Positions 3,435 to 55,811 of a stretch of 64,000 nt of DNA are shown here, piece after piece. The DNA is taken from NCBI GenBank assembly GCA_015680905.1, contig CM027378.1, forward strand, positions 87,635,501-87,699,500, written 5' to 3'. Positions within the stretch are counted from its first letter, which is position 1, and each line of letters begins with the position of its first letter. A program made the position numbers and the translations under genes. This DNA comes from Coptis chinensis. Taxonomy: Eukaryota; Streptophyta; Magnoliopsida; Ranunculales; Ranunculaceae. The notes below the pieces were generated by a model. It searched no databases, had not been told where the DNA came from, and saw nothing but the letters and a program-made list of their open reading frames with translations.

Positions 3435-5168
3435 TGATAAGCACCCAAAACTATAATATTAAACCCTGAGAGACATAACATTTTGATCGATTATGTGTTT
3501 AATAATCATGTAATAATTATATTTTCGTACTTTTGCAGGTTTCCGCAGTTAACATGAATATAATGATAAAACATGTATCGAAGTACGGGAATACTGTAAT
3601 ATTTGAAGTTCCCCACTCAACCCTAGTGAAGCCCAACAAAGCCAGACTAGAGCCGAAGTTTCCAAAAGAACAAAACCAGTGCAGAACGGGTCCACATATA
3701 AAGAAGCAGCAAACTTCCGAAGCTCACATCTGATAAATCTGGATGTCGACGTTGGCGAGTGAACTACCAGAGCGACGAACTCTACGCAAAGACAGAAAGT
3801 TGTAAAAATGCCAATATCAGCGCCGCCACTGAACACACTAAGTGGACCCACTCTGCAGGCCCAAAAGGCATGACGAAGTCGATAAGCGGTGTGGCAAGTG
3901 ATGGTCACAAATTTGTGCCACCTTGCAATGGGAAAGACATCGCACCAATTCAATGTTTGAATTGAATTGGGCTAAAAAGACAAAACCAAAACATAAAAAG
4001 ACAAAACCTTAATAAGTAAAAGACAAACCAAATTAAACAAAGTAAAAACAAAACTTTGTTATTCAAAGTTTTGAACGTCTCAATTTGAGAAACGGACAAA
4101 ACCCAATTAAATCCTTCACAAGGCTCTCAGCCTATATATATATGAGGGGGGTCTTCATTATTCGCCTTCAAAAGATTTTATGCTTTAGCCTATACATTAG
4201 CTAGTTAATCGTCTGTAGTTTTTCATTCCAGCAGCTTAAGTTCCGTCATTTTCATTTCAGCAGCTTAAATACTGTAAGTCATTTCTTCTTAATAAAATTC
4301 ATTTCTTTTCAAGTTTAATTCCTGTCCTGTATTTATTTATTTAATGTATACAGCAAGTTTAATTATTCCTTCAATGACCATGAGCTAATCCCCCCTCTCA
4401 GGGGGAGGGTTATGCTGCTCGTGTGAGAATCCGGATTGACTATTTAATATTCTAGAATCACTGCTTAGGAATTAGGTGTAGATTAGACATCCGGTCCTAA
4501 AATGACTGAGAATGTACAAATTTGCGATCGATGCTCGAATCAGCCTCGCGAGAGACCCAAAATGTCTGTCGCTACTCTGCAGTGTCAGACAACTCTCCAA
4601 TTTGTCCAGCTAATGTAGAATCGAGCTAGGAGCTGAAATGATATTCCAGAGATGCAATATTAGTTCAACTTCTTATGCTAGTGCGATGCGACTCAGAGAT
4701 GTGCGCGTTTCGCTAGGGATCAATACTCGACGTCATCTCGGGTTTGTCTATGAACTCGAGATGAATTAGAGCTGTAGTGATGTGGTAATATAAATTGTTA
4801 AAAAATAATTCTTGCATGAGTATGATTAACCCTCTCCCTGTTTCTCTATCTTTGTTTATTCACATCGAAATCATCGTTAGTAATTTACATTATTTACATT
4901 ACCGTTAATTTAATTAAACCAACTAAAAAACCTAAAATCATACTCACTAAAAGTTGTAATTCCAGTTGTGAACCTTGCCGAGCCCTAAGGTTTGGACGAT
5001 CCCTTACTCAACCTATCCTACTAAACCCACGTGAGTAAGGTAACTTGACTAAACAGACGACTATACGGACTTTGGACTTTGGTCTTCGGACTTCGGACTT
5101 CGGACTGTGGACTTCGGACTTAAGTAAAAGAATAAAAACCAATTTAACATGGATTTAACGTTTTATCA
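3435..5168 (+). mobile_element. Solo LTR of Athila-like family A
   Basis: Begins TGATAAGCACCC and ends TTTTATCA, giving the same 6-bp inverted termini (TGATAA/TTATCA) as the LTRs of the full element at 9209-26999, which it matches along its length. Flanking 5-mers are GACAA (3430-3434) and TACAA (5169-5173), a target duplication with one mismatch. No primer-binding site or internal region follows, so this is a solo LTR left by LTR-LTR recombination. It contains a TATA-like CCTATATATATATGAGG near 4131-4147, probably the LTR promoter, and a GGACTTY heptamer array at about 5069-5120. The 60-134 residue open frames inside it are LTR sequence, not genes. Confidence 0.92.
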
Positions 5169-8793: not shown

Positions 8794-9208
8794 TGGTTTT
8801 GAAGAGGATGGTATATCTGCTCTGTTATCTGTTAAGAATATGTTATGAATTTGTTGAATCTGTTATCTGTTGAATTTTTTCGGCTATCTGTTAAGAATCT
8901 GTTGAATTTTTTCGGTTATCTATTATGAATCTATTAAGTGTGTGTTGAATGTGTGTTATGAAATTTGCTTGGTACAGGAAAGAAGAGTACTGATTCGGTC
9001 TCTTTGCAAACCTTGTGAATGTAGACCGAACATGATACTTGACATTTGCAGCTGGAAAGCTAAAATAGAAATAGAAATACTTGACACTAGTGTGAGTGAA
9101 ACTCTAGTTGTTTAGTTAACCCCTATTGTAGTTGAAAAGCTAAAATAGAAAGAGTACTACGATGCGCTCTGACATGATTTTCCAACTGCTAATTCAAACG
9201 ATACAATG

Positions 9209-10918
9209 TGATAAGCACCCAAAACTATAATATTAAACCCCGAGAGACACAACATTTTGGTCGATTATGTGTTTAATAATCATGTAATAATTATATTTTC
9301 ATACTTTTGCAGGTTTCCGCAATTAAAATGAATATAATGATAAAACATGCATCGAAGTACGGGAATATGGGAATATTTGGAGTTTCCCACTCAACCCCCG
9401 TGAAGCCCAACAAAGCCTGACTAGAGTCGAAGTTTCCAAAAGAACAAAACCAGTGCAGAACGGGTCCATATATAAAGAAGCAGCAAACTTCCGAAGCTCA
9501 ATTCGGATAAATCTAGATGTCGACATTGGCTAGTGAAGCTGCTATAAAGAACCCGGCGAACTTTAACTCAGGCGAGGACGAGAAAGTCGTAAAAAACCAA
9601 AATCGGCGCCACCATGGACACACTAAAGTGGACCCACTACTCTGGGTCCGTAGGCATGACGAAGTCAGATAGGCAGGTGGCAAAGGATGGTTTCAATTTG
9701 GTACCACCCGCAAGAGAGAAGACATTACATAAATTCAAACCGGGTGGTTTGAATTGAAATGAGCTACAAAACAAAAACTTAAAAAGCAAAAGACAAAAAG
9801 CTAAACAGATCAAAACAAAACTTTGATTCTCAAAGTTTTGAACAAATCAATTAGCTAACGAACAAAACTCAATTAAATAGTTCACAAGCCATCCAACCTA
9901 TATATATGAGGGGTCATTATTTCCCTTCAAAGATTTTCATGCTTTAGCTTCCGCCCTAGTTAGTTTATTTCTTCAAGATTTACATTCGTCATTTCCATTC
10001 CAATAGCTTAAATATTGTAAGTTATTTTACCCTTAATAATCATTTTCTTTTCTAGTTTAATTCATCCTGCATTTATTTACTTAATGTATACAAAGTTTTA
10101 TTATTCCTTCTATGACCATGAGCTAATCCCCTTGGGGAGGGTTATCTTTGCTTCGTGTAAAATCCCGATTGACTCTTTAATATTCTAGAGTCACTACTTA
10201 GGAATTAGGCTTAGATTTGACATCCGGTCCCAAAATGACCGAGGATCGTACAAAGTTGGATCAGCGATGCTCGAATCAGGTCTCGTCGCTGAATCTAAAA
10301 TGTCTCAAGCAAGACGACTCTCTCCTCGTCGACATGCTCTTCAATTTGTCCAACTGATGTGAAATCGAGCCAGGAGCTGAAATAATATACCAGAGATGAG
10401 ATATTATTGAAACTCCTTATGCTAGTGAAATGCGACCTAGAGATGTGGGCATGCACTAGGGATCAATACTTTCGCCGCTCCTAAAACGAGACGAATTAGA
10501 GATGTAGTGATGTGGTAATATAAACTGTTGAAAAATGATTCTCGCATGAGTATGACTAACTCTCTCCTTGTTTCTCTATTTTTGTTTACCTACATATAAT
10601 CGCCGTAGTAATTTACATTATTTGCATTACCGTTAATTTAATTAAAACCAACTAAAAAGAAACCTAAAAAATCCTACTCACCAAAAGTTGTAATTCCAAA
10701 TGTGAACCTATCCGAGCCCTAAGGTTTGGGCCGATCCCTTTACTCGACCTATCCTACCAAACCCACGTGAGTAAGGTAACTTGACTAAAACGCATTTACT
10801 ATACGGACGTTGGACTTTGGACTTGGGTCTTTGGACTTCGGACTTTGGACTGTGGACCTCGGACTTAAGAAAATAAGTAACTGAAATCAATAAACGTGTA
10901 TAAAGAGAATTTTTATCA
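9209..10918 (+). repeat. 5' LTR of element A
   Basis: 1710 bp, termini TGATAA/TTATCA. A TATA-like CCTATATATATGAGG lies near 9897-9912. A GGACTTY-type heptamer array lies at about 10806-10866. Compared with the 3' LTR it shows scattered substitutions plus a cluster of differences around CG-rich words at about 10240-10360. Confidence 0.93.
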
Positions 10919-10920
10919 AA

Positions 10921-10943
10921 TGGCACCGCTACACGCCGAAGGA
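10921..10943 (+). other. Primer-binding site of element A
   Basis: Two bases after the LTR the sequence reads TGGCACCGCTACACGCC. It begins like the tRNA-Asp-type site of Athila elements (TGGCGCCGTTGCC) but is clearly decayed. Element B has TGGC at the identical offset. Confidence 0.6.
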
Positions 10944-12134: not shown

Positions 12135-14077
12135 AGACTACGGTCCGGTAAACATAAGGAATTAGAATTTACATATCATCGTCGAAAATACAAGAAACAA
12201 CTGTTTATGTTATCTCCTAGACATAGTCCCTCCTCCTCCGTGAAAATCAACCTCGTCAAACATCTCCGTTGCCATTATCTCCTTTAACTATGGTCGAGGA
12301 AAATCTCATCGAAAAAACCCCTTTCGATTTCTATATCGCCTTACAGAAGGACTTGCTTCCTGTATTAAACTCGATCGCGATTGTAGGTGATTTTCGTGAT
12401 TCCGCCAAACATTTTGGTTTGTTACCTGCTTACCATGGTTTAGACCATGAAAAACGTATTAATCATCTTCGCCGGATGCAACAAGTAGTCACCACTTTCC
12501 GCCATCCGACCGCTACCAACGAACAAGTCTTGCTTAGGTTGTTTCCCTTCACCTTAGTCGATAAAGCTTCAGTTTGGCTCGCCGGACAAGCGCTGCAATC
12601 CATTGACACATGGGCCAAACTTGTTCAAGCATTCATGATAAAGTTCTATACTCAGAAGAAAACTACAGAAATGCTTCAAAAGATTCAATTCTTTCGCCAA
12701 AGACCCCGTGAATCCTTTTCGGAAGCGTGGAGCAGATTTACTGATCTACTTCTCGAATGTCCCCATCATCAATTCGACACCGCTGTATTAGTCCGTTCAT
12801 TCTTTAATGGTTTCTCTGACCATCAAAAGGAAACATTAGATATCATGAACGGCGGTTGTTTCATGGACAAGGGCGCCATCAAGCATACACTTTTTCTTGA
12901 AAAACAAGCTTCACGGCACTCATCGGGGAAACACCGATTCTTCTAGATCTTCTAAAGACACTCCTACCAAAGTTAAGTCTATGTTCGAGGTCAAACCCGA
13001 TCCGGAATTAAAAACTCTAATCGAGTCCCTAAACAAAAAGGTCGATGCTCTTTCGGTACAAGTAAATGAACAAAAACCCAAACAGTCATGGCTGCCAATG
13101 CTTCCCCATGCCCCTCTTTGCTTAAGTCCCCGAAAGAAAGCCGATTCTTATTGTCCTTTGGTATATGAGTGTCCTCCCCAACCTTCTGAAGAGGCTTGTG
13201 CTTTCAACATCCCTAATGCACCTTGGTGATAACATCCGAATGTAGCTTGGGCACCCCCTGTCCAACAACAAGCTCCTCCAGGTGGCAACAACGTTCCTGT
13301 ACGACCACCCGCGAACTACAATTCCTATCGTCAAAGAAATCCTCTACAATTCCAGCAAGGGCAAAGTAATTTTCCCAACAACGCAAATATAGGGTACCAA
13401 AACAACCGCAACCTTGTTCCCGCTAATCAAGGATATGGCTACCAAAATCAACCCATGAATAATAACCGTGAACTAGTTCCTGCTGCTCCTTTGGTCAATC
13501 TACAGCTGATAAAATGGCTGAAACTTTCCTGACATACATGAATCAACAGAATCAAATCCTAGCTTCTATCCAACAATCTCTTCAGCTGTTAGCTCAGGAT
13601 AAAAGTCAAAAGGGCGTGTTCCCTGGCCAAGCAGTTCCAAACCCTAAGCCTACAAACACTGCCTTTGAACTCAACAATGCACCAGGATCTAGTAATCCAA
13701 GCCAGGGTGAGGTAAATGCCATTACCACTCTTCGTTCTGGCCGAACCATCGACAATAATATACGTATGCCAGACGAGGAATCGACGGAAGCCACGACTTA
13801 CATCCTTCCAACTCCTACCTCGCAACCTATAACGGACGAAGTTGTACCTTCAAAATCTACACCCACGTCCCTAGGAAAAGATACTACTGATTCTTATACG
13901 CGATTCCGCCCAAAAGCTCCGTTCCCTGCCCGTTTGGTAAAGAACAAACATGACGAACATTTTGATGAGATCCGTGAAACCTTCAAAAATTTGACCATAA
14001 ACTTACCTTTCCTAGATGCGCTAAAGCATTTGCCCAAGCATGCCAAGTTTTTGAAGGACATGTGCACCACCAAATGA
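12135..14077 (+). pseudogene. Athila gag polyprotein, frameshifted
   Basis: Starts at the ATG of an MRLRSGK segment, a basic start typical of Athila gag. The retrotransposon-gag core at 12269-12946 contains the PFTLVDKASVWL and SIDTWAKLVQAF motifs. The frame then shifts (12897-13229), has a TGG-TGA stop at about 13229 where element B reads TGG-AGA, and continues in another frame from 13514 to 14077 with a Q/N/P-rich linker and a PKAPFPARL segment leading to protease. At least three frame changes are needed to read it, so no complete Gag can be made. Confidence 0.85.
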
Positions 14078-14821: not shown

Positions 14822-16345
14822 TTGATCCCCAATCCTCCAACTCCGGATTTAAAACCTCTACCCTCCGAGTTGAAGACGCGGCATCTCGATCTCGATGGTA
14901 GTCACCCTATAATAATTTTTGCTCACTTGACTACCGACGAAGAGGCACGTTTGATTCATGTCATTTGTGAACACCGCTCCGCTATCGGATGGTCCATAGA
15001 TGATATCAAAGGAATAGACCCTAGCATATGCACGCATCGCATACATCTCGATGACGGCACAAAGACATCGCGAGAACCACAACGCCGCCTTAATCCCGCC
15101 ATGAAGGAAGTGGTGAGAGAGGAAGTTTTACGCTTACTTGATGCGGTATCATATACCCTATCTCGATAGTGATTGGGTTAGTCCCGCCCACGTTGTTCCC
15201 AAAAGTCCGCATTCAAGTTGTACAAAATGAAAATGGTGAGTGCATCTCCACTCGCATTCCTTTGAAATGGAGAATTTGCATTGACTATCACAAACTTAAT
15301 GCCAGAACCCGTAAAGATCACTTCCCTCTCCCATTCATTGACCAGATGCTAGAACGTTTAGCCGGTCATGCTTACTACTGTTTTCTTGATGGCTATTCCG
15401 AATACTTCCAAATTGTCATCGATCCCGCCGATCAAGAAAAGACAACTTTCACGTGTCCTTTTGGAACCTTTTCATACAGAAGAATGCCTTTTGGTCTTTG
15501 TAATGCCCCAGGCACTTTCCAACGCTGCATGCTTCATATTTTTAGTGATATGGTGGAACGTTATATGGAAGTCTTCATGGACGAATTTTCCATTTACGGA
15601 AATTCCTTTGACGACTGTTTATCCAACCTTTCTAAAGTATTAACGCGTTGCGAAGAGAAAAATCTGGTACTCAATTGGGAGAAGTGTCATTTCATGGTTA
15701 CCAAAGGACTTGTTCTAGGTCATATTGTTTCAAAAGACGGGATAGAGGTTGATAAAGCTAAAATTGTTAAAATTTCTTCGTTACCTTTCCCACGTACAGT
15801 TCGTGATATCCGTGCCTTTTTAGGCCACACTGGGTTTTACAGGCGATTTATTCAAGATTTTTCTAAAGTTGCTCGACCCTTAACCAATCTCATGCTTAAA
15901 GATGCAGTATTCGACTTCAATTTCAATTGCAAACAAGCTTTTGATACTCTAAAACCGCCTCGACTACCGCCCCTATCATTCAACCCCCGATTGGTCTCAA
16001 CCATTGAACTGATGTGTGACGCTTAGCGACTTTGCTATTGCTGCCGTACTAGGCGAACGACGAGACGACAAACCCATTGTCATTTACTATGCTAGTAAAA
16101 CTCTTAACTACGCTCAACGTAATTATACCACAATTGAGAAAGAGTTCCTAGCTATTGTCTATGCTTTGGATAAGTTTTTCCCCTACCTAGTTGGAACATC
16201 GACCATCGTATATACTGACCATGCCGCAATTCGGTACTTACTTTCGCGAAAAAAGGACGAAAACAACGATTGTTCCACTGATCCTTCTCTTACAAGAATT
16301 CACCTTTGGAAATCAAAGACAAGAAAGGAACCGAAAATATCGTGA
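14822..16345 (+). pseudogene. Reverse transcriptase-RNase H, frameshifted
   Basis: 14822-15169 carries the N-terminal RT region (AIGWSIDDIKGI, then EPQRRLNPAMKEVV). 15169-16026 carries the palm with FLDGY, MPFGLCNAPGTFQ and the catalytic box VFMDEFSIYG, followed by the thumb (FLGHTGFYRRFI). 16016-16345 is RNase H (IVIYYASKTLN, IEKEFLAIVYALDKF, VYTDHAAIRYLL). The catalytic box is MDEF rather than MDDF, so the second catalytic Asp is replaced. Three frames are used in succession. Non-functional as read. Confidence 0.9.
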
Positions 16346-16559: not shown

Positions 16560-17690
16560 CTTTAAGTATTGTTCCGACCAACTCATTTGTCCGTGCATTC
16601 CCGACCGGGAACACACCGACGATTATCCTTTTGCCATGAACAATCTTTACTTGGAGGTCATTTTCAGTGGAAAGAAAACATGCGCCAAGGTGTTACAATG
16701 TGGTTTTTATCGCCTACCCTTTTTCGCGATGCACACAAACATTGAATAGCTTGCATTCGTTGTCAGCACCTAGGTCGAATTACCAAACGAAATATGATGC
16801 CCCTAAATCCTATCTTGATTGTGGAAATTTTTGATGTTTGGGGCATTGATTTTATGGGACCTTTCCCTATTTCTCAAGGTTTTCTATATATTTTAGTCGC
16901 TGTAGACTGTGTCCAAATGGATTGAGGCACTCGCATGTCGCTCAAATGACCATAAGACTGTCGTGAGATTTGTAAAAGAAAACATTTTCTCTCGTTTTGG
17001 TGTTCGCAAAGCTATCATCAGTGATGGGGGTACACATTTTTGTAACAAAATTTTTGGGTTTTTAATGAAGAAATATGGAGTTACTCATAAGGTTGCTACT
17101 CCATACCACCTACAAACGAGTGGCCAAGTGGAAGTCTCCAACAGAGAGATAAAGTCTATTCTGGAGAAAATTGTCAACCCATCAAGAAAGGACTGGTCTC
17201 TCCGCTTATCGGATGCCTTGTGGGCATACCGAACATCATTTAAGACACCTATAGGGATGTCTCCTTACCGCATTGTTTTTGGAAAACCTTGTCATCTGCC
17301 AGTTGAACTTGAGCATCGTGCCCTTTGGGCCATCAAAACCTTAATTACAATATCATCGAGGCAGCGAAAGTGAAAACTGCAATTAAATGAGCCGAGGAGG
17401 AGATTCGAGTGATGCTTATGATCTCTCAAATCCTACAAAGCTAATATGAAAAGAGTGCACGACAAGCACATTTTGGCGTAAGGATTTCAAAATTGGCCAA
17501 AAAGTTTTATCAGCATAACTCCATATTACACATCTTTCCCCGGTAAATTGAAAACAAGATGGTCCGGTCCTTTCATTGTGGTCACCTGTGAAACATTATG
17601 GGGCAATCTCTTTGCTTAATCCAAAAGATAACAAAGTGAATTTCAAGTTAATGGACAACGCCTAAAACATTACCACGAATTACGCCACCG
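16560..17690 (+). pseudogene. Integrase, frameshifted
   Basis: The zinc-binding N-terminal domain (about 16590-16790) is degraded, with a stop before ACIRCQ. The catalytic core is well kept: GIDFMGPFP (first Asp), IISDGGTHF (second Asp), and [13 protein letters not shown] (Glu), followed by [16 protein letters not shown] frame change lies near 16905. The C-terminal domain (17390-17690), with KTRWSGPFIV and NFQVNGQRLKHYHE-like text, is recognisable only across frames. Confidence 0.85.
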
Positions 17691-18628: not shown

Positions 18629-19175
18629 ACATGACAGACATTTGTCTATGATTTAAGATGGTGACTCTCCTAGACATCCGTTTTTTCACGATATCTCCCT
18701 TTGTATATAAATAAAACCTTTGTTTATAAATAAAACACTCTCCTTCTTTTAAAAAACCTTGTGACCTTCAAGAATGACTCATACAATTGATAGCATTTTT
18801 TTCGTGCCGATCGTTTCGGGTATCTCATTCGTCCAATTTGGAGTCCAAACGAGTCGTGGGTAAGCATTTAGATTTTTTAGGTTTAAATCGGGCTTTAGGC
18901 TTGATTTGGGCTTGGGGAAAATTTTGGCCCAACCAAAATATCGAATTCTCGATCCATTTAAACACAAAAACCGAACACACGCCACATTTACATCATTCTT
19001 CTCCCTAAAAAACCGGATCTTGCCCCCTCTTGATTTAGTCTCGCACGAGACAGGCCCACACTAAAACCAGGTCTCGCGCGAGACTCTCACATCTCCAACC
19101 AAGTTTTCCTTCCGTCAGAACATCCCATTTCTTCCCCTCATCAAGAATCAATAGCCATCCTCTCTAAGACCAAGA

Positions 19176-20390
19176 ATGGCCGGAAACAGCGGATTTGTGT
19201 GGAAATTTTTTGGAAATTTGTTTGAAAACGGGATGTTTGCTCCATTCTTTGATCACGAAATTCACTCTAGAGGATGGGAGAGTTTGTTATATGCCAATGG
19301 AGGGCTTTATTCCAAGGATTTGGTGATGAAATTCTACGACAATGGGAGCTTTAATGGCGACCATTTTGGGTCACCGTTGAGGGTGTCGCCACGGTCACAC
19401 CTGTGTTGCTTCTCCCGATCACGGGCATTCCTCCGGTCGACCACGCATCGACTCAGCAGCAGTCCGTGTACCCACGGACTTACGACCTAATGCTCGACAC
19501 GCTAATTGAGGGAGAGTACAACATCGACAGGAAATGCGCCAGACGTATCGCGTTCGTCGACGCGAACCAAATTGGGTCAGTGACTCAATGGTCGGATCAA
19601 CGTCATTGGCACCTCGGCCTTCGACATCAACAAAACCTTCCTCCACCTTATCCGATCCTCCAGAGTGAAAGGGGTAACTTCTACATCGCTACCTTTCCTT
19701 TTGATATTATCACACATGCTACTCTTAGGTCACCCCTCTTGCCGCTCTAGTAACGCAAGTTATGATTAATCTGGGTTTTCCGTCCGCCACCCCACTACTC
19801 CCTATACCACAATATGAGAATATGCTTGTCTTCAAGAAATGCATACAGACCCTTTGGGAACCCACAAAGACCTAGGGCTGCCGAAAGCACGCTTAGCGTA
19901 GGATCCTCTCACCCACCCTACTTTGATGAGATCGCCATGAGTAAGATCACCCACCCCATATAGGCCTTTACGCTGCTATGAAATGTGGTCCGAGAGACAT
20001 GTACACTCGCCAGGTATCGATGAGACGCACTTTGGGCGAAGTTAAGGACAGATATGACCACTCGCCACGAAGTCGATGATGATGACAAAAAGATGGGCGA
20101 ATTCCAAATAGAAAATGAGAGCTTCCATGACCGCATTTCAGACAATATGCTTTACTCGCCGTAACCGGTTCCAAATAATGTTCATGGCGAGCCAAAGATC
20201 GATTTCGTGCTCGTGTGATGGATACTCTTGGTGATATCTAGGAGCAGTTAGCCTCCACGGAGCTCAGATCGCACGCCATGAACCCGGGGTTCCGCTAAAA
20301 TATCCGGTTCTTCTTTCCGCAGCCCCGAGGATTCTCGCTACAAAGATCCGAGGATCATCGATAGCTAGATTTATTTTTCCGGTCTTGTAT
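19176..20390 (+). pseudogene. Athila 3' ORF, paralogue 1, decayed
   Basis: Starts MAGNSGFVWKFF and has the signature RGWESLLYANGGLYSKDLVM followed by KFYDNGSFNGDHF, paralogous to the ORFs at 21291 and 22548. The frame changes at about 19400, after which LIEGEYNIDRK and a VTQW segment align with HGEYNRKN and VIQW of paralogue 2. Beyond about 19750 only scattered pieces are readable. The domain resembles plant-transposon protein families attached to Athila elements (I would test Transposase_32 and ATHILA ORF-1 models). No counterpart is seen at this position in element B. Confidence 0.6.
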
Positions 20391-20642: not shown

Positions 20643-20724
20643 AACGGTTAGAAAACGGTCATGAACCACATCTAAAAAACGGTCAGAAAACGGGTCGTAA
20701 AATGCAATTTTCTTTCTATAAATA
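20643..20724 (+). promoter_or_regulatory. Putative internal promoter: four AACGG boxes plus TATA box (element A)
   Basis: AACGG occurs at 20643, 20654, 20678 and 20689, three times as AACGGYYA, followed by TATAAATA at 20717-20724. Element B has the same arrangement (four AACGG boxes, then TATAAATA). AACGG is the core of the plant MSA element (YCYAACGGYYA) bound by MYB3R factors in G2/M-phase genes. The next ATG is 103 bp downstream of the TATA box, a normal plant leader length. Promoter activity is inferred. Confidence 0.6.
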
Positions 20725-20819
20725 AGTTCAACTCTTCCTCCATATTCACTCATTTCATATTCTTCCCTCTACACTTCTTATTCTAAAAACGTTTTTAGAT
20801 CACTCCAAGCTCAAGATTC

Positions 20820-20939
20820 ATGGATGCACTAGAAAAGTTTGAGCAGCAGCAGATTGAATATGCTACTCAAGTCTTCATGCTCGGTTGTTTTATTATAGTC
20901 ATGTTGTTAATGTGGCATATAGTTCTATCTAATATTTAG
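20820..20939 (+). CDS. 39-residue single-pass membrane micro-ORF (element A)
   Basis: ATG at 20820, TAG at 20937-20939. The N-terminal half is charged and Q-rich (LEKFEQQQIEYA), and the second half (about residues 17-37) is a hydrophobic segment (GCFIIVMLLMW) long enough to span a membrane. It aligns without gaps to the 43-residue micro-ORF at 49482 in element B: L/I-E/D-K/R-F/W at the start, Q-x-E-[YW]-A before the membrane segment, and a shared LL. Both sit behind the same AACGG/TATA arrangement. Below the usual ORF-calling cutoff, so it is easily missed. Function unknown. Confidence 0.6.
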   Translation: MDALEKFEQQQIEYATQVFMLGCFIIVMLLMWHIVLSNI

Positions 20940-21049: not shown

Positions 21050-21085
<36 letters not shown>

Positions 21086-21211: not shown

Positions 21212-21220
21212 TATTTATAA
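21212..21220 (+). promoter_or_regulatory. TATA-like box upstream of paralogue 2 (element A)
   Basis: TATTTATAA preceded by GCC, 79 bp before the ATG at 21291. Element B has GCC-TATAAATC 62 bp before its homologous ATG. Confidence 0.4.
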
Positions 21221-21290
21221 CAAGGATAGACACCTCAAAAATTTAACTTTCCTTTTTCCAAAATAATCTTTTTTCATCACTCCATCTTTA

Positions 21291-22298
21291 ATGGCCCTCA
21301 CTCGAAGTTTCGTGCCCGAGCAAAATTTTATGGAAAATTTCCAAAATGGTCTTTTTCATCCTTTTTTTTACACTGAAATATTACGTCGAGGATGGTACCC
21401 TCTTTTACACCATAAGCAAGCATTTTATTCCAGAGAATTGGTCTTGTTATTTTATAAAAGCGGTTATTTCCAAAACGGACAATTCTTTGTCCGTGATAAC
21501 GGATGCGAACATGAATTGACTATGGAAATCATCTCTGAGGTACTTCAAATTCCTATTACAAACCAAGGAGTACACCTTCAGGATTCACCTTTCGATAATA
21601 TCCGGCATCTGATGTTTGCAACTATCCTTCATGGCGAATACAACCGGAAAAACTGTATTGTTTATCAGCGATCTTTACAAAAGAACCAATTATCTGTGAT
21701 CCAATGGGTAGCTCATAATGTCCTAGGCACGTTTAAGACTTCCGAAATAACCAAACCCCTCCTCCATTTACTCTGGGTCTTGCAAAGTAACTTCAATGAT
21801 TTTTGCATTATTAAATTTCTCTAGAATGCGATCGCACGTGTCAGGAAAAAGGCAGCTCCTTTACCAACCATTGTGACACTTATCATGATACATTGGGGTT
21901 TTTCTTGTACTTCTCCTCATACACCTCTTCGAACAGCTAACATTCTTACCATTCACTCAGTATGTAGGAACGGATTCTGGAACCCCGACGTTGCAAAGAA
22001 CCATGTCGGTGCAGGAACCAACGAAGATTGTTCCACCGACAACATCTTTACTGAAAATGCATTATGCAACGTATTTAATCCCATGGAAGGGCTTCACTTA
22101 ATTCAACAAGGACTGATGACATTATTCAAACGTCAGAACATTATTATCACCAGCCTTCTTGAATTTCAGGACCTATGGACAATAAACGAAGAGGAACAAG
22201 CACAATTCTTGCACAACCACAACCAATTCTTGGCAAATCATACTCTCATAATGGAGAACCACGCCGAGATTTACCAGACAGAAAGCAAAATGTTGTAA
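21291..22298 (+). pseudogene. Athila 3' ORF, paralogue 2, one in-frame stop
   Basis: A single frame of 1008 bp runs from MALTRSFVPEQNF to the stop at 22298, interrupted only by TAG at 21822-21824. Element B has TGG at that site, so a single G-to-A change explains the stop. Early part: RRGWYPLLHHKQAFYSREL, then VLLFYKSGYFQNGQFF and a HGEYN motif, as in the other two paralogues. Late part: Q/N/H-rich with coiled-coil character (EEEQAQFLHNHNQF). Compared with the frameshifted gag-pol of the same element this ORF is strikingly well kept. It is in the position of the env-like gene of Athila, but I see no signal peptide or clear fusion-protein layout. Confidence 0.7.
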
Positions 22299-22547
22299 CA
22301 GTTTCATTGCAACGGATTGACGGCATAGAAAATCTTATAAACGGATCCCTCCCACAAAAGGATCCTCGCCGCTACTTGGGCCAATGAAACCATTTAAATT
22401 TTGCAATTTTATATTATTTATCATTTTCTTTTTAGTTTTTAATTTTCGTATGGTAATTTGTTTTTACTTTATTATTCTCATCATACTCTAATATTTGTCT
22501 ATCCTTGTCTAAACAGGTCACATTTTTTTTTCCACATATCTTCTACA
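22299..22547 (+). other. Spacer between paralogues 2 and 3
   Basis: T-rich non-coding stretch ending TCTAAACAG just before the next ORF. This looks like a 3' splice site, so paralogue 3 may be expressed from a spliced transcript. Confidence 0.35.
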
Positions 22548-23210
22548 ATGGAAGCTCCAAAGATGATTCCAGAACAATCTTTCCATTCGTTGCTAAATTC
22601 TCCGGCATATGGACATCTTTTCAGAGACTACATCACTCAAGTTGGTTGGAACTTTCTTATTCTACACCCGGAGCAGACATACTCCCCAGGTTTGGTAACT
22701 TATTTTTATGATCACATGGAAGATCTACCAGCTGTCCAGGGTTTCTATTTGAATGGTTTTACACTACGTATTGGTAACACCCGACACACTTTTTATGAGC
22801 CAACAGTGGCTATGGCTCTAGACCTTCCTCCTCTTCAGCCAGATCTCCCCATTCAATACATGATAGAGAATGACTTTAATGACTATTCTAAGGAAGATTT
22901 TGCTGCCCGATATGGTGATGGCCTTGCCCACGTCAAAGAACGTGCCGAAGCTGGCCGATGGCCGGACTTCACTATTCCACTAGCCAGTATGACCATGAAT
23001 GTTGGAATTGCCATGTTATTTATTCTTCTGAACATCATGGGGGATTGGCATTTTTCCACTGCATCAAAGTTAGCGTGTAAGACATTCCATGCATTGGCCC
23101 AGCAACATACCGCCTTCGACATTACAGACCTAGTAATTGAGAATCTTAAGAAGGCTCGGTCTTTTCGCCAACACTATATCACCCCGCCAAGCATTCAGCA
23201 TGCGGGATAG
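22548..23210 (+). CDS. Athila 3' ORF, paralogue 3 (220 residues, intact)
   Basis: Start chosen at MEAPKMIPEQ because the homologous ORF of element B starts just before a PPKLIPRKQSFQS segment. It contains YGHLFRDYITQVGWNFLIL, then YSPGLVTYFY, the same W..L...YS..LV..FY pattern as paralogues 1 and 2. Residues about 142-170 (PLASMTMNVGIAMLFILLN then IMGDWHFSTA) are hydrophobic and nearly identical in element B, so this block is under constraint or only recently split. No stop or frameshift across 663 bp. Role unknown; candidates are an accessory or structural protein. Confidence 0.7.
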   Translation: MEAPKMIPEQSFHSLLNSPAYGHLFRDYITQVGWNFLILHPEQTYSPGLVTYFYDHMEDLPAVQGFYLNGFTLRIGNTRHTFYEPTVAMALDLPPLQPDLPIQYMIENDFNDYSKEDFAARYGDGLAHVKERAEAGRWPDFTIPLASMTMNVGIAMLFILLNIMGDWHFSTASKLACKTFHALAQQHTAFDITDLVIENLKKARSFRQHYITPPSIQHAG

Positions 23211-25237: not shown

Positions 25238-25277
25238 CTTTGCTTGAGGACAAGCAAAGTGCTGTTTGGGGGTGGTG
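25238..25277 (+). other. Stem-loop and polypurine tract before the 3' LTR (element A)
   Basis: CTTTGCTTG-AGGA-CAAGCAAAG (25238-25259) is a perfect 9-bp stem with a 4-nt loop. TTTGGGGGTGGTG then runs directly into the LTR at 25278. The G-rich run is the plus-strand primer; the hairpin is identical in element B. Confidence 0.8.
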
Positions 25278-26999
25278 TGATAAGCACCCAAAACTGTAAT
25301 ATTAAACCCCGAGAGACACAACATTTTGGTCGATTATGTGTTTAATAATCATGTAATAATTATATTTTCGTACTTTTATAGGTTTCCGCAATTAAAATGA
25401 ATATAATGATAAAACATGCATCGAAGTATGGGAATACGGGAATATTTAGAGTTTCCCACTCAACCCCCGTGAAGCCCAACAAAGCCTGACTAGAGCCGAA
25501 GTTTCCAAAAGAACAAAACCAGTGCAGAACGGGTCCATATATAAAGAAGCAGCAAACTTTCGAAGCTCAATTCGGATAAATCTAGATGCCGACGTTGGCT
25601 AGTGAAGCTGCCATAGCAACCCGGGCGACGAACTCTGCGCAAGGACAGAAAGTCGTCAAAACGCCAAAATCGGCGCCGCCACTGGACACACTAAGTGGAC
25701 CCACTCTGCGGGTCCAGAAGGCATGATGAGTCAGCATAGGCAGGTGGCAAAGGATGGTTTCAATTTGGTACCACCTGGCAAGAGAGAAGACATCGCATAC
25801 AAATTCAAACCGTGGTTTGAATTAAAATGAGCTACAAAACAAAACTTAAAAGCAAAAGACAAAAAAGCTAAACAGATCAAAACAAAACTTTGATTCTCAA
25901 AGTTTTGAACAAATCAATTAGCTAACGAACAAAACTCAATTAAATGGTTCACAAGCCATCCAACCTATATATATGAGGGGGTCGCCTTCATTATTTCGCC
26001 TTCAGCATTTTCATGCTTTAGCTTCCGCCTAGTTAGTTTATTTCTTCAAGATTTACATTCTCATTCATTTCCATTCCAAAGAAATTAAATATCGTAAGTT
26101 ATTTTACCCTTAATAAAATTTTCTTTTCTAGTTTAATTCCCCGTCCCGCATTTATTTACTTAATGTATACAAAGAAGTTTTATTATTCCTTCTATGACCA
26201 TGAGCTAATCCCCGGGAGTGGTTATCTTTGCTTCGTGTAAAAATCTAGATTGACTCTTTAATATTCTAGAGTCACTACTTAGGAATTAGGCTTAGATTTG
26301 ACATCCGGTCCCAAAATGATCGAGACTGCATAAAGTTGGATTTGCTTGATGCTCGAGCAGTCTCGCTAACCCAAAATGTCTCGTCGCGCGACTCTCGATA
26401 ATGTCGAACATGACTCTCCATTAAATCCGGTGATGTGAAATCGAGCCAGGAGCTGAAATAATATACCAGAGATGAGATATTATTGAAACTCCTTATGCTA
26501 GTGAAATGCGACCTAGAGATGTGGGCATGCACTAGGGATCAATACTCGATGTCGTCTCCGAAAATGGGACGAATTAGAGATGTAGTGATGTGGTAATATA
26601 AACTGTTGAAAAATGATTCTCGTATGAGTATGACTAACTCTCTCCTTGTTTCTCTATTTTTGTTTACCTACATATAATTGCCGTAGTAATTTACATTATT
26701 TGCATTACCGTTAATTTAATTAAAACCAACTAAAAAGAAACCTAAAAATCCTACTCACCAAAAGTTGTAATTCCAGTTGTGAACCTATCCGAGCCCTAAG
26801 GTTTGGACGATCCCTTACTCGACCTATCCTACCAAACCCACGTGAGTAAGGTAACTTGACTAAAACGTACGACTATACGGACATTGGACTTTGGACTTTG
26901 GACTTGGGTCTTTGGACTTCGGACTTTGGACTATGGACCTCAGACTTAAGAAAATAAGTAACTGAAATCAATAAACGTGTATAAAGAGAGTTTTTATCA
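25278..26999 (+). repeat. 3' LTR of element A
   Basis: 1722 bp, TGATAA...TTATCA, homologous over its whole length to 9209-10918 and to the solo LTR at 3435-5168. It carries the same TATA-like word near 25965 and the GGACTTY heptamer array near 26880-26946. Confidence 0.93.
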
Positions 27000-27001
27000 C
27001 A

Positions 27002-27244
27002 ATGCAAAATACAATACAAAATAACGATGTGTCCTCTGTTAATTCAAACGATGTACATAATCACGAACTAGATTACAATATAGGACAAATCAGACTTTCG
27101 AATCAACACGATCGTAATGTGTTTCCATTGCAAACAACATCTTCAAACCCAAATAATGCAAACTTAATATACAAAAAAAAAGTATCATGTGAAAGGAAAC
27201 ATGAAAATGAATATACTGAAAGTAGGTTCAAGAACAGATTATGA
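27002..27244 (+). CDS. Short N-rich ORF in Mutator-like element 1, unrecognised
   Basis: An 80-residue open frame, rich in Asn and Ser, starts inside the CAATG duplication of Athila A, so its true beginning lay on the other side (before 9209) and is now separated. The word AATTCAAACGAT occurs on both sides of the retrotransposon (9191 and about 27041), hinting at a small repeat in the original gene. No family recognised. It could be the 3' end of the element's own gene or non-coding. Confidence 0.25.
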   Translation: MQNTIQNNDVSSVNSNDVHNHELDYNIGQIRLSNQHDRNVFPLQTTSSNPNNANLIYKKKVSCERKHENEYTESRFKNRL

Positions 27245-39347: not shown

Positions 39348-40123
39348 TGATAAACACCCAAAAGTGTATTATGAAACCCCATTGAGACATATAAATTTGG
39401 TTAATTATGTGTTTAATAATGATGAAATAAATATGTTTTCATACTTTTGCAGGTATTTACATTAAACATGGAAATATTGGTTAAACCTGAAATAAAGCAC
39501 GAGGAACGGCGTATATACGAATTCTCCCAAATCCACACAGAAGCATCAAACTTCCAAAGCTCCTACCCCTCGAACTAGGACTCCGAATGCGACACGAGAG
39601 ATACTCAGACAATCAGGGCGATGAACTCTACGCATAGGCGGGAAATTGTAACACTGCCCAAAATACCGGACCGCCACTAGACTGCACATGGACCCACTAT
39701 CTTGGGGACCACAAGATTGGATGAGTCATCAATCATGGAGCATGTCAAGACAAAGATAACAAATTATTGGTGCAAAGTTGACACCTTGCATGTAATAAAT
39801 TAGATTAGGTGTTAATAGTGAAAAAAAAGGCAAGGTGTCACTTTGTTTTAATGTGGTGGATAAAAATTCATTAATGTGGTTTGATAATTCACGGGAGGAA
39901 ATGAGATTTCTCTCAAATGGAAAAGAAATTAGACAAGGGTGGGGGACACTCCATTTACTCCCTTGACTTATTTTCCTCACATGACATTATTTTTTAGTTC
40001 CTTAGTGAAAGAAATGTTAAGTTAGTTTTTTAGTTTTTATTAGAAAGCTTGTAATAGTTTTAATGGAGGAACACTTGTTTCTTCTAGAAAATTAAATAGA
40101 AGTGAGTTTGATTGTTTAGCTTT

Positions 40124-40211
<88 letters not shown>

Positions 40212-40853
40212 GTTTATAAATCCTTGTCCCAAGGATCATGAGCTAACTTCCCCTTTGGGGAGTTAATCCAACTCATGTGAGGGTAAATCAATTTTTGTTG
40301 GTTTGATAGGTTGTTAGGAAGAACAACTAGCTCTACACCCTATCCCAAAATGATAGTTGGTGTAGTGTCTAGTTAGGAATCAAAACAATGAGCTTAGAGA
40401 TAAGTCATTGTTTAGTTCCACTTGCTAGCATGTGTGAGCTCTTAAGTGAGCCATACATGCTAGGGATCAAATCTTTTCTTCCATTAGGGGCTTGTCTATG
40501 AGTCTAGGAAGGATCAAATAACCTTTTTCAAATCAACAACTAATGATAGTTCACATGAGGAGGATTAACTCTCCACCTTTTCTTTCAAATCTCTATTTTG
40601 GTATTAAGTGCATGTTTTCAACTTTAATGTCTTTCTTAATGTTTGTATAGGAAGGAAATCCTAGCTTAAATATTATAACCTTACTCCTTAGTTCCCTTAA
40701 TTGTAACATCCAATTTGTAGTTGTTCTAAACTTTAGGTTAGTTCGAATCCTTATTCAAACTCTATGAAACAAAGATCGTGAGTAAGGAACCTTGAGTGCT
40801 TTTGCATCAATTTAGAGTTCAAAACTCTAAGTAGTAGTAACAAGCATATATCA
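39348..40853 (+). repeat. 5' LTR of element B
   Basis: 1506 bp, TGATAAACACCC...ATATATCA. It contains a CT microsatellite of roughly 37 units (about 40125-40200), about twice as long as in the 3' LTR. Apart from the microsatellite, differences from the 3' LTR concentrate in the first 250 bp. Confidence 0.93.
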
Positions 40854-49329: not shown

Positions 49330-49398
49330 AACGGCCTGATCCAAACGGTCAGATGCCAACGGTCAGATGCCCAACGGTCAGAAATCTACTTATAAATA
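49330..49398 (+). promoter_or_regulatory. Putative internal promoter: four MSA-like boxes plus TATA box (element B)
   Basis: AACGG at 49330, 49344, 49358 and 49373 (spacing 14-15), the last as CCCAACGGTCA, a full match to YCYAACGGYYA. TATAAATA follows at 49391-49398, 91 bp before the micro-ORF start. Parallel to 20643-20724 in element A, while the sequence between the boxes has diverged. Confidence 0.6.
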
Positions 49399-49481
49399 CA
49401 ACTCTCCTTTCCACTTTCACTCATTCCCTTCTCTCACTCTTCACAAATTCTTCTTCACAAATTTTCAATTCCTTGAACATA

Positions 49482-49613
49482 ATGAATCAAATAGACCGAT
49501 GGAAAAAGGAGCAACGCGAATGGGCTATCACATTAATCGTGATAACAAAGTTGTTTATCATTATTCTCTTGTCACTCATGCATAACATGATCCGAACATC
49601 TAGATCTATGTAA
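49482..49613 (+). CDS. 43-residue single-pass membrane micro-ORF (element B)
   Basis: Begins MNQIDRWKKEQREWA (charged, amphipathic) followed by a hydrophobic run ITLIVITKLFIIILLSLM and a short basic tail (RTSRSM). Gap-free homologue of 20820-20939 in element A. Intact, unlike everything upstream in this element except the 348-bp frame. Start chosen as the first ATG after the TATA box. Confidence 0.6.
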   Translation: MNQIDRWKKEQREWAITLIVITKLFIIILLSLMHNMIRTSRSM

Positions 49614-49748: not shown

Positions 49749-49818
<70 letters not shown>

Positions 49819-50210
49819 AATAATAATAATAATAATAAGTAAATAAATAAACAAACCATAACAAAGAAAGGCCATCCAAAACTCACCAAAATAATTAATG
49901 GATACACATAGTGTTCAGAGAAAATCACAAGACGCTACAAGGTACACATAACACTTGTCACACATGCACTTCGATTATTCTATCCATATTCTATTACTGA
50001 GTTATGATCATCATTTCTGAAATTACGTGTAAGTTTAACTACCCTGTGAAACTTTTCTCCGTATTTTCTAAACATTAAACCATCTCATTAATTGTATTTG
50101 GATATCTGACATGACAAAGACTTACTGTGGATCCCCTATAATGCTGTTCATAATCACATGGGTCATTAAATACACTTGGACTCCATATTGGTATAGCCTC
50201 ATAGATTGCC
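49614..50210 (+). other. Spacer with AT and ATA microsatellites (element B)
   Basis: Non-coding, with (AT)n at about 49758-49811 and (ATA)n right after, followed by AT-rich sequence. Confidence 0.5.
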
Positions 50211-50218
50211 TATAAATC
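50211..50218 (+). promoter_or_regulatory. TATA box upstream of paralogue 2 (element B)
   Basis: TATAAATC after GCC, 62 bp before the ATG at 50273; matches the position in element A. Confidence 0.4.
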
Positions 50219-50272
50219 TCTTCTTTTTAAGCCATTCTTATTCATACAATTTTCACTATCCTTCCCTCAGTA

Positions 50273-51290
50273 ATGACTCAACCAAGAAAAATAACGGCAG
50301 AGAAAGACTACCTAAAAACTTTCGAAGAAGGTCGGTTTTCTCCTTATTTTGACACCGAAAGCATACGTCGCGGATGGACGCCTCTTCTATATCATTCAGC
50401 AGCTAGTTATTCCCGAGAATTGGTTTTGATGTTCTACCAATTTAGCGGATATGAAGATGGAAAATTCTACTTCAATGCCTATGGACAATGATTGGAATTG
50501 AATAAGGAAATGATCTCCGACATACTTCAAATCCCAATAAAAACACAGGAGTCCCTTGTTCAAGAGTCATCATTCGATTCCGCAAAAACTTTATCATGAG
50601 CTACCAGATCTCATGGCGACGCCGAAAAATACACATCACATGGTTCTTCAACGCTTTTGAAACGTAATCAACGTGTTGTGCTCCAATCGGGTTGGGACAT
50701 AATGTGGTAGGTACATCACACTAATCGAGGAAGTCACAAAGCCTCAACTTCACCTACTTTGGATTTTGCAAACTCAACGAGATGATTTTTGTCTAATCCA
50801 ACACCTCTGGAACGTAATCACCAAGAAAAAAAGAAGGTCAGCACCTCTACCCACTTTGGTAACGCAGATTATGATGCGTTGGGGTTATCCAATAATTTCT
50901 CCAGACACCCCTTCAAAGAGCATATATAAAGGTACTTCAAAACAGACTACTTCGTTGGTTTTGGACCCCGATACTCGATAGATGAAAGCGTAACACCCCA
51001 AGCTCAAATTCTCACCATTTATTTGATGAAAATGTCATGTCAATATTATTAATCCCATGGAAGGCATTAAACTTCTTCATCGTGGGTTTGAGGGAACTAC
51101 ACGCCGTCGAATATCATCATCACAACTCTTCGTGATTTCCAAGATCGCCAAGCAACGCATGATGTTGAACAGAGGAGATCTTGGAAAATCATTCTCAATC
51201 CTTGCAAAATCACGCCTCCTAATGGAAAATCAAACTGTACTCTCGCCGACCAAGGGGACATTCAGATGCACCGCCAACAAATAGAAGACC
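50273..51290 (+). pseudogene. Athila 3' ORF, paralogue 2, element B
   Basis: Intact for 72 codons (YLKTFEEGRFSPYFDTESI, RRGWTPLLYHSAASYSRELV) then a TGA at 50489-50491. Further pieces (QHLWNVITKKKRRSAPLPT; MEGIKLLHRG) follow in other frames. Homologous to 21291-22298. Confidence 0.65.
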
Positions 51291-51579
51291 TAAACAGCTT
51301 TGGTGCAAAATATGCATCTCCAAGAGCAATATAAGAATCCATGATATTACTAAGTCAATAAGTATATAATCATCTATGTTATTACGTTTTCCGCCCTTAC
51401 TATGTATTTTGTCTTATCTTTTTGTCTTCTTTTGTATGCAATGCTTAATAGGATTGTCATCATTTCCATTGTGACTAATATAATTTTAACATGTGCTACA
51501 GAGGGTCTATTTTCTTACATACTCATTTTTCCATCCAAATGGCCTGTAGATCGTTACCCATTTCTTTACTTCATCCACC

Positions 51580-54348: not shown

Positions 54349-55108
54349 TGATAAGCACCCAAAAGTGTATTATGAAACCCCATTGAGACATATAAATTTG
54401 GTTAATTATGTGTTTAATAATCATGAAATAAATATGTTTTCATACTTTTGCAGGTATTTGCAGTAAACATAGAAATATTGGTTAAACCTGAAATAAAACA
54501 CGAGAAACGGCATATATACGAATTCTTCCAAATCCACACAGAAGCATCAAACTTCCAAAGCTCCTACCTCTCGAACCAGGACTCCGAATGCGACACGAGA
54601 GATGCTCAGACAATCAGGGCGATGAACTCTACGTATAGGCGGGAAATTATAACATTACCCAAAATACCGGACCGCCACTGGACTGCACATGGACCCACTA
54701 TGCAGGGCCACAAGATTGGATGAGTCATCAATCATGGAGCATGTCAAGACAAAGATAACAAATTATTGGTGCAAAGTTGACACCTTGCATGTAATAAATT
54801 AGATTAGGTGTTAATAGTGAAAAAAAAGGCAAGGTGTCACTTTGTTTTAATGTGGTGGATAAAAATTCATTAATGTGGTTTGATAATTCACGTGGGAGGA
54901 AATGAGATTTCTCTCAAATGGAGAAGAAATTAGACAAGGGTGGGGGACACTCCATTTACTCCCTTGACTTATTTTCCTCACATGGCATTATTTTAGTTCC
55001 TTAGTGAAAGAAATGTTAAGTTAGTTTTTATTAGAAAGCTTGTAATAGTTTTAATGGAGGAACACTTGTTTCTTCTAGAAAATTAAATAGAAGTGAGTTT
55101 GATTGTTT

Positions 55109-55154
<46 letters not shown>

Positions 55155-55811
55155 GTGTTTTTTTTTAGTTTATAAATCCTTGTCCCAAGGATCATGAGCT
55201 AACTTCCCCTTTGGGGAGTTAATCCAACTCATGTGAGGGTAAATCAATTTTTGTTGGTTTGATAGGTTGTTAGGAAGAACAACTAGCTCTACACCCTATC
55301 CCAAAATGATAGTTGGTGTAGTGTCTAGTTAGGAATCAAAACAATGAGCTTAGAGATAAGTCATTGTTTAGTTCCACTTGCTAGCATGTGTGAGCTCTTA
55401 AGTGAGCCATACATGCTAGGGATCAAATCTTTTCTTCCATTAGGGGCTTGTCTATGAGTCTAGGAAGGATCAAATAACCTTTTTCAAATCAACAACTAAT
55501 GATAGTTCACATGAGGAGGATTAACTCTCCACCTTTTCTTTCAAATCTCTATTTTGGTATTAAGTGCATGTTTTCAACTTTAATGTCTTTCTTAATGTTT
55601 GTGTAGGAAGGAAATCCTAGCTTAAATATTATAACCTTACTCCTTAGTTCCCTTAATTGTAACATCCAATTTGTAGTTGTTCTAAACTTTAGGTTAGTTC
55701 GAATCCTTATTCAAACTCTATGAAACGAAGATCGTGAGTAAGGAACCTTGAGTGCTTCTGCATCAATTTAGAGAGTTCAAAACTTTAAGTAGTAGTAACA
55801 AGCATATATCA
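54349..55811 (+). repeat. 3' LTR of element B
   Basis: 1463 bp, TGATAAGCACCC...ATATATCA. CT microsatellite of about 19 units at 55113-55150. Confidence 0.93.

Follow-up and report, generated by a model that had tools for sequence, protein, structure and literature searches.

Two Athila-type elements and the unit downstream of pol

The window analysed here is a 64-kb stretch, C2:87635501-87699500, of the 935.6-Mb assembly of Coptis chinensis. Comparison of the window with itself using blastn revealed two Athila-type LTR elements, A and B, lying in the same orientation (Table 1). The LTRs are paired in both elements, and the matches to PF03732, PF00078 and PF00665 in A exceed the cut-off, which places the elements in the Ty3/gypsy group. 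The K2P distance between the 5' and the 3' LTR amounts to 0.099 in A and to 0.026 in B, and the gag-pol region of A lies between positions 12.1 and 18.6 kb. The order of features is alike in the two elements: pol, a micro-ORF unit, env-like ORF1, env-like ORF2 and the 3' LTR. A third A-type LTR lies upstream of element A at 3435-5128 and is some 79-80% like the LTRs of A; in the self-comparison, the stretch separating this LTR from element A contains nothing that matches the internal part of either element.

The unit of element A consists of four AACGG boxes, a TATAAATA box, a leader and an ORF of 39 residues with one helix, all of them just where the original prediction had placed them. The same layout, with an ORF of 43 residues, had been described for element B and is indeed found there, running from the AACGG at 49330 to the TAA at 49613. 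The leaders of A and B are partly alignable by eye. Nowhere else in the 64 kb do at least three AACGG fall within 150 bp on one strand, and clusters of four AACGG in 50 bp, of which two are observed, did not arise in any of 200 dinucleotide shuffles of the window. Each peptide has a single hydrophobic stretch of 19 residues, with a mean Kyte-Doolittle value of 2.66, and its N-terminal part is charged.

AACGG is the core of the plant MSA element, which is bound by MYB3R proteins in G2/M genes and has the consensus YCYAACGGYYA. The boxes of B agree with this consensus at 10, 10, 10 and 11 of 11 positions, one of the four therefore fitting in full. Agreement is lower for the boxes of A in the window (8, 8, 8 and 6 of 11) and for the other boxes of the A family (7-8, giving 6-8 for the family as a whole). 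What the units have in common with MSA elements is a repeated AACGG core near a TATA box; the difference is that the A-family boxes agree with the consensus in the core and on its 3' side only, the 5' YCY side being missing. A possible control in G2/M by MYB3R is the weakest step of the model set out below.

Downstream of the unit, two frames of A match PF20167 with scores of 20.5 and 16.9 bits, under the curated cut-off of 45 bits. The first of these, env-like ORF1, is preceded by a TATA-like box of its own, 62-79 bp before the ATG, in A, in B and in a further A-family copy, copy C (L056). The A-run that follows the micro-ORF in A is 24 nt long in copy C (L056 8023-8046); B lacks it and has a (TA)n/(TAA)n tract in its place. 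Upstream of the unit, A carries an extra, decayed copy of env-like ORF1 with protein matches to 21267-21821 and to B 50231-50488. This extra copy is also present in copy C (DNA match, L056 6111-7217) and was not seen in B; its presence in A and C suggests that a duplication took place long ago in the A family.

Table 1. Features of elements A and B, in window coordinates
Feature	Element	Position	Strand	Remarks
5' LTR	A	9207..10922, ends approximate	+	blastn self-comparison
gag piece	A	12227..12946	+	Retrotrans_gag PF03732, E 2.6e-16
Reverse transcriptase piece	A	15142..16026	+	RVT_1 PF00078, E 3.2e-26
Integrase piece	A	16906..17373	+	rve PF00665, E 5.2e-9
Partial extra copy of env-like ORF1, decayed	A	19155..19872	+	upstream of unit
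Four AACGG (MYB-type) boxes	A	20643..20693; starts 20643, 20654, 20678, 20689	+	
TATAAATA box of micro-ORF unit	A	20717..20724	+	
Leader	A	20725..20819	+	pyrimidine-rich, without ATG
Micro-ORF, 39 aa	A	20820 (ATG)..20939 (TAG)	+	one hydrophobic helix
A-run, 29 nt	A	21054..21082	+	about 115 bp past micro-ORF stop
TATTTATA	A	21212..21219	+	79 bp upstream of env-like ORF1 start; same in copy C
Env-like ORF1 (Transposase_32-like)	A	21291..22298	+	one in-frame stop; PF20167 E 4.7e-4; homologous pieces in B
Env-like ORF2	A	22548..23210	+	PF20167 E 0.0061; homologous pieces in B
3' LTR	A	25276..27004, ends approximate	+	blastn self-comparison
5' LTR	B	39348..40853, ends approximate	+	blastn self-comparison
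Four AACGG boxes	B	49330..49377; starts 49330, 49344, 49358, 49373	+	period 14-15
TATAAATA box	B	49391..49398	+	
Leader	B	49399..49481	+	pyrimidine-rich, without ATG
Micro-ORF, 43 aa	B	49482 (ATG)..49613 (TAA)	+	one hydrophobic helix
(TA)n then (TAA)n tract	B	49754..49840	+	after micro-ORF
TATAAAT	B	50211..50217	+	62 bp upstream of env-like ORF1 start
Env-like ORF1 region, broken	B	50273..51281	+	pieces match A 21267-22295
3' LTR	B	54349..55811, ends approximate	+	blastn self-comparison

Copies of the unit

A search of the same genome with the DNA of the A unit gave 42 rows at no fewer than 40 places, on sequences C1-C8 and C80 (best 40 of 1167 candidates scored), and one with the B unit gave at least 40 places, on C1, C2 and C4-C9 (best 40 of 1643 candidates scored). 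When the A peptide was used, 146 of the best 150 of 2215 candidates were without a stop and 74, the window's own included, were identical to the query. This list is ordered best first, so that neither figure is a measure of constraint; likewise, the first-look counts of 1167, 1643 and 2215, of which 40, 40 and 150 were scored, are not copy numbers. The unit, whose ORF the original prediction had proposed looking for in other family members, recurs in many copies of both families, and we conclude that it is a family feature of both A and B.

Twenty-two A-family copies were compared, namely A, copy C and 20 of the 39 further A-unit places; the latter rank highest by DNA match once the window's own is set aside, and counts among them hence give no share among all elements. 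Copy C was the sole match in a scan of 20 neighbouring 10-kb stretches (200 kb, a contiguous sample). A loose scan of nine downstream stretches (90 kb) gave three rows at two sites (L060 and L061), with no membrane ORF and no copy of the unit. The TATAAATA box is present and invariant in all 22 copies. The micro-ORF is free of indels in every one and its frame is intact in 20, L073 and L076 carrying nonsense changes. Its ATG is the first after the TATA box in 21 copies, an earlier ATG occurring in L086. The AACGG boxes number from three to eight per copy and are spaced at 11, 22, 24, 34 or 35 bp, with eight boxes and a repeated 35-bp spacing in L084; from these spacings we take the array to behave like a variable tandem repeat. 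Within the family the TATA box shows a diversity of 0, the ORF of 0.022, the leader of 0.028, the sequence immediately 3' to the ORF of 0.040 and the box array of 0.050.

Outside this genome, the pattern AACGGTCAGA-N(0-30)-TATAAATA occurs in 36 stretches of IMG/VR; over the roughly 240 bp inspected in each, 35 contain one AACGG and one contains two. The box array was present in none of the 36, and these matches were set aside as chance occurrences. RT searches of IMG/VR gave 9 and 55 pattern matches with no relative among them. The corresponding search of prokaryote genomes gave 106 pattern matches, including two relatives (L037 and L038) that are 99.6% alike. These lie on contigs of some 9-10 kb with a plant Ty3/gypsy gag-pol frame, in the assemblies of Solirubrobacter sp. 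CPCC 204708 and Geminicoccus harenae CPCC 101083, and look like plant DNA contaminating bacterial assemblies. From pol to the contig end, L037 has one AACGG on the + strand, with no cluster and no TATAAATA on that strand; a single TATAAATA is found on the - strand at 9435. Env-like ORF1 gave no hit in the genome that contains L037, a result that carries no weight as evidence of absence. Because this related plant element is without the unit, the unit is not universal in the wider lineage.

Coding capacity of the micro-ORF

Scoring of the 174 ATG-started ORFs of 35-60 residues in the window, A's included, against the B peptide identified the A peptide as the best, with 0.66 BLOSUM62 units per residue; the runner-up scored 0.11. 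The two peptides share seven identities. They had been claimed to align through the N-terminus and the helix alike. The claim is upheld for the N-terminal 16 residues, which align better than shuffled sequences (P 6e-4), and fails for the helix, whose alignment is no better than shuffled (P 0.39). In neutral simulation the pair as a whole reached a P of 0.0014, and the N-terminus, simulated at the divergence of that part, a P of 0.019; dN is 0.99, and dS is not computable. Neither peptide has a Pfam match at E 1 or better, and with 39-43 residues they do not qualify as a retroviral envelope, which is a large glycoprotein made up of a surface and a fusion subunit.

That the ORF has survived next to a shattered gag-pol had also been offered as evidence, and to this we give no weight, since some 40 codons survive decay by chance. 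The ORF, at about 120 bp, is about 50 times shorter than the gag-pol region, and the LTR divergence is 0.026-0.099. Gag-pol decay is therefore uninformative, and its use as proof of selection on the micro-ORF was rejected on the grounds of ORF size and low LTR divergence.

Among the 22 A-family copies, the ORF contains 22 variants, of which seven are synonymous, 13 nonsynonymous and two stops, as against expected neutral shares of 0.19, 0.72 and 0.09. The synonymous excess (P 0.11) is no clear departure from these shares. At the rate of the flanks, 6.4 synonymous, 24.0 nonsynonymous and 2.9 stop variants would be expected; the nonsynonymous shortfall has a Poisson P of 0.011 and the total number of variants a P of 0.025, the error of the flank rate being ignored in both. 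Dead copies should look near neutral, and substitution within the A family appears to be so, with at most a hint of constraint.

For comparison between families, two B-family copies, L088 and L089, were chosen for low DNA identity before they were read. The frame of L089 is broken. That of L088 is open over exactly 39 codons and ends NI-stop as in A, an end that differs from those in B and L089. It was because of its open frame that L088 was taken for the coding test, a mild choice in its favour. A and L088 align without gaps over the 39 codons, with the stop in the same position, and 12 residues are identical and 28 identical or similar. Segment-preserving permutation gives a P of 1e-5, the limit of 100,000 shuffles, and neutral simulation 0 of 5000; pS is 0.78 versus a pN of 0.42 (Fisher P 0.004 on rounded counts). 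We regard this comparison, of one pair in which L088 was preferred over the broken-frame L089, as the strongest evidence of coding. In L090-L092 the differences are all synonymous, which provides no test as these copies were chosen for 100% peptide identity. The expectation of dN/dS below 1 is thus borne out between families, for the one pair of A and L088, and is not borne out within the A family, with its near-neutral counts. Overall, the peptide is probably real and the micro-ORF was probably once useful to the element.

A proposed internal promoter and membrane peptide

Among the marks of an accessory gene of plant LTR elements are an ORF found in the same place in most copies of a family and conservation of its protein between families. 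Here the ORF lies behind TATAAATA in 22 of 22 A-family copies, 20 of them fetched as top matches, and the protein is conserved between A and L088, one pair only. With a probability of about two in three, we take the unit to be an independent accessory micro-gene of the Athila-type lineage, consisting of an internal promoter and a single-pass membrane peptide. This proposal builds on what can be read directly from the DNA, that is, the layout, its occurrence in many copies and the codon-level constraint between A and one B-family copy. In the model, the AACGG array and the TATAAATA box would form an internal RNA polymerase II promoter, with initiation expected some 30 bp below the TATA box. No ATG occurs in the leader, and the first one after it opens a frame of some 39 codons. 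This frame would encode a peptide, charged in its N-terminal part, that spans the membrane once and resides in membranes of the host, most likely those of the ER or the nuclear envelope. Its synthesis would be separate from that of gag-pol and of env-like ORF1, the latter having its own TATA-like box a few hundred base pairs downstream. Transcription, translation, membrane location, MYB binding and use in mobilisation are what we infer from this arrangement.

In our ranking, the independent micro-gene is favoured over a reading in which the promoter is real but serves the env-like region, the micro-ORF serving as uORF or leader in a longer transcript that continues into env-like ORF1 and ORF2. 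Such an arrangement is possible, if doubtful. The internal ENV ORF promoter of Arabidopsis Athila6A, an element that also has an intron (PMC4977677), may act this way, env-like ORF1 follows immediately on the unit in each of A, B and C, and a splice-donor-like sequence can be picked out by eye after the stop codon of A. However, the TATA-like box that env-like ORF1 possesses in all three copies would leave it with a start of its own, the A-run (A and C) or AT-rich tract (B) separates it from the micro-ORF unit, and the codon-level constraint seen between A and L088 is not required of a mere leader. This last observation also bears on whether the frame encodes anything at all, since the likeness of A and B could reflect shared regulatory DNA, the frame of about 40 codons having arisen by chance and survived because it is short. 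A 120-bp frame easily survives LTR divergences of 0.026-0.099, the within-family shares are near neutral, and the two stops seen are close to the 2.9 expected at the flank rate. We nevertheless consider a non-coding origin unlikely in view of the equal length and stop of A and L088, the 28 of 39 residues that are identical or similar, the excess of pS over pN and the simulation result of 0 in 5000, to which may be added the 13 nonsynonymous variants where the flank rate predicts 24 and the absence of indels from the ORF in 22 copies though the box array varies in length.

The A-run raises the further idea that a host transcript or small gene, perhaps a G2/M gene, was captured, leaving a relic of its poly(A) tail about 115 bp past the stop, 29 nt long in A and 24 nt in C. 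There is a parallel in poplar Tpb1-1, where a polyA of 47 bases and a 19-codon transmembrane ORF occupy the same interval after pol and where, in the available text, the authors suggest an integrated cDNA (PMC1142308). A cDNA would not carry its own upstream promoter, however, and B has its (TA)n tract instead of an A-run. Moreover, the best 150 of 2215 A-peptide candidates are all at least 92% identical, so that no diverged host relative is seen among them, although one could rank lower. Capture is in our estimation improbable, somewhat more so than a chance frame.

Parts of the arrangement favoured here, the independent micro-gene, have already been published, namely promoters for env inside the element and, downstream of pol, a short membrane ORF. 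Athila6A has in common with A and B an internal promoter ahead of an Athila env-like ORF; the published work attributes that promoter to the ENV ORF, and the available text mentions neither an AACGG array nor a micro-ORF (PMC4977677). Tpb1-1, and soybean Diaspora with its predicted transmembrane stretch after pol, likewise have a short predicted transmembrane ORF or region in this place, and the polyA of the former resembles the A-run. They differ in that Tpb1-1 has an ORF of 19 codons and Diaspora one broken by two stops, and the available text, which refers to data not shown, describes no promoter and identifies no env-like gene (PMC1142308). In sunflower Athila 14, a 70-residue single-helix ORF(-) accompanies a 487-residue Transposase_32 ORF(+), so that a small one-helix protein and a Transposase_32-type protein again occur in an Athila element, whereas the former is longer than the peptides of A and B and, being marked (-), probably on the opposite strand; the available text describes no promoter motif (PMC11728184). 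Gene23 of maize Grande is an accessory gene situated after pol and before the 3' LTR, with its own promoter, as proposed for the micro-gene; unlike the latter it is antisense and, according to the available text, encodes a nuclear protein (PMC7264820). A literature search at the level of titles and abstracts, mostly outside subscription journals, found no MYB/AACGG array with a micro-ORF in Athila.

A bolder version of the micro-gene model would make the unit a conserved micropeptide gene of about 39 codons, belonging to an endogenous-retrovirus-like lineage, activated by MYB proteins in dividing cells independently of gag-pol, and acting like viroporins or the small single-pass membrane proteins of plant viruses. 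We hold this to be speculative and rather doubtful. If it were true, the peptide might serve in ER remodelling, cell-to-cell movement or passage through the nuclear envelope at mitosis, and it would supply the function for which the env-like regions of plant elements have long been examined. That function is debated because the cell wall leaves an envelope little use, as set out in the available text of PMC7264820. A separately promoted membrane micropeptide common to two diverged families would be a concrete, testable product of such a region, and one that illustrates how annotation relying on long ORFs may overlook a transposon gene even when its copies are numerous. The MYB-box array, which varies in length, may be a reason for tissue- or cell-cycle-linked expression.

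As env-like ORF1 has a TATA-like box of its own, two tandem promoters in sense orientation may be present between pol and the 3' LTR. Just before env-like ORF2, at 22460-22520 in A and at 51440-51505 in B, there are pyrimidine-rich stretches that end in AG and by eye resemble splice acceptors; splicing may give access to this ORF.
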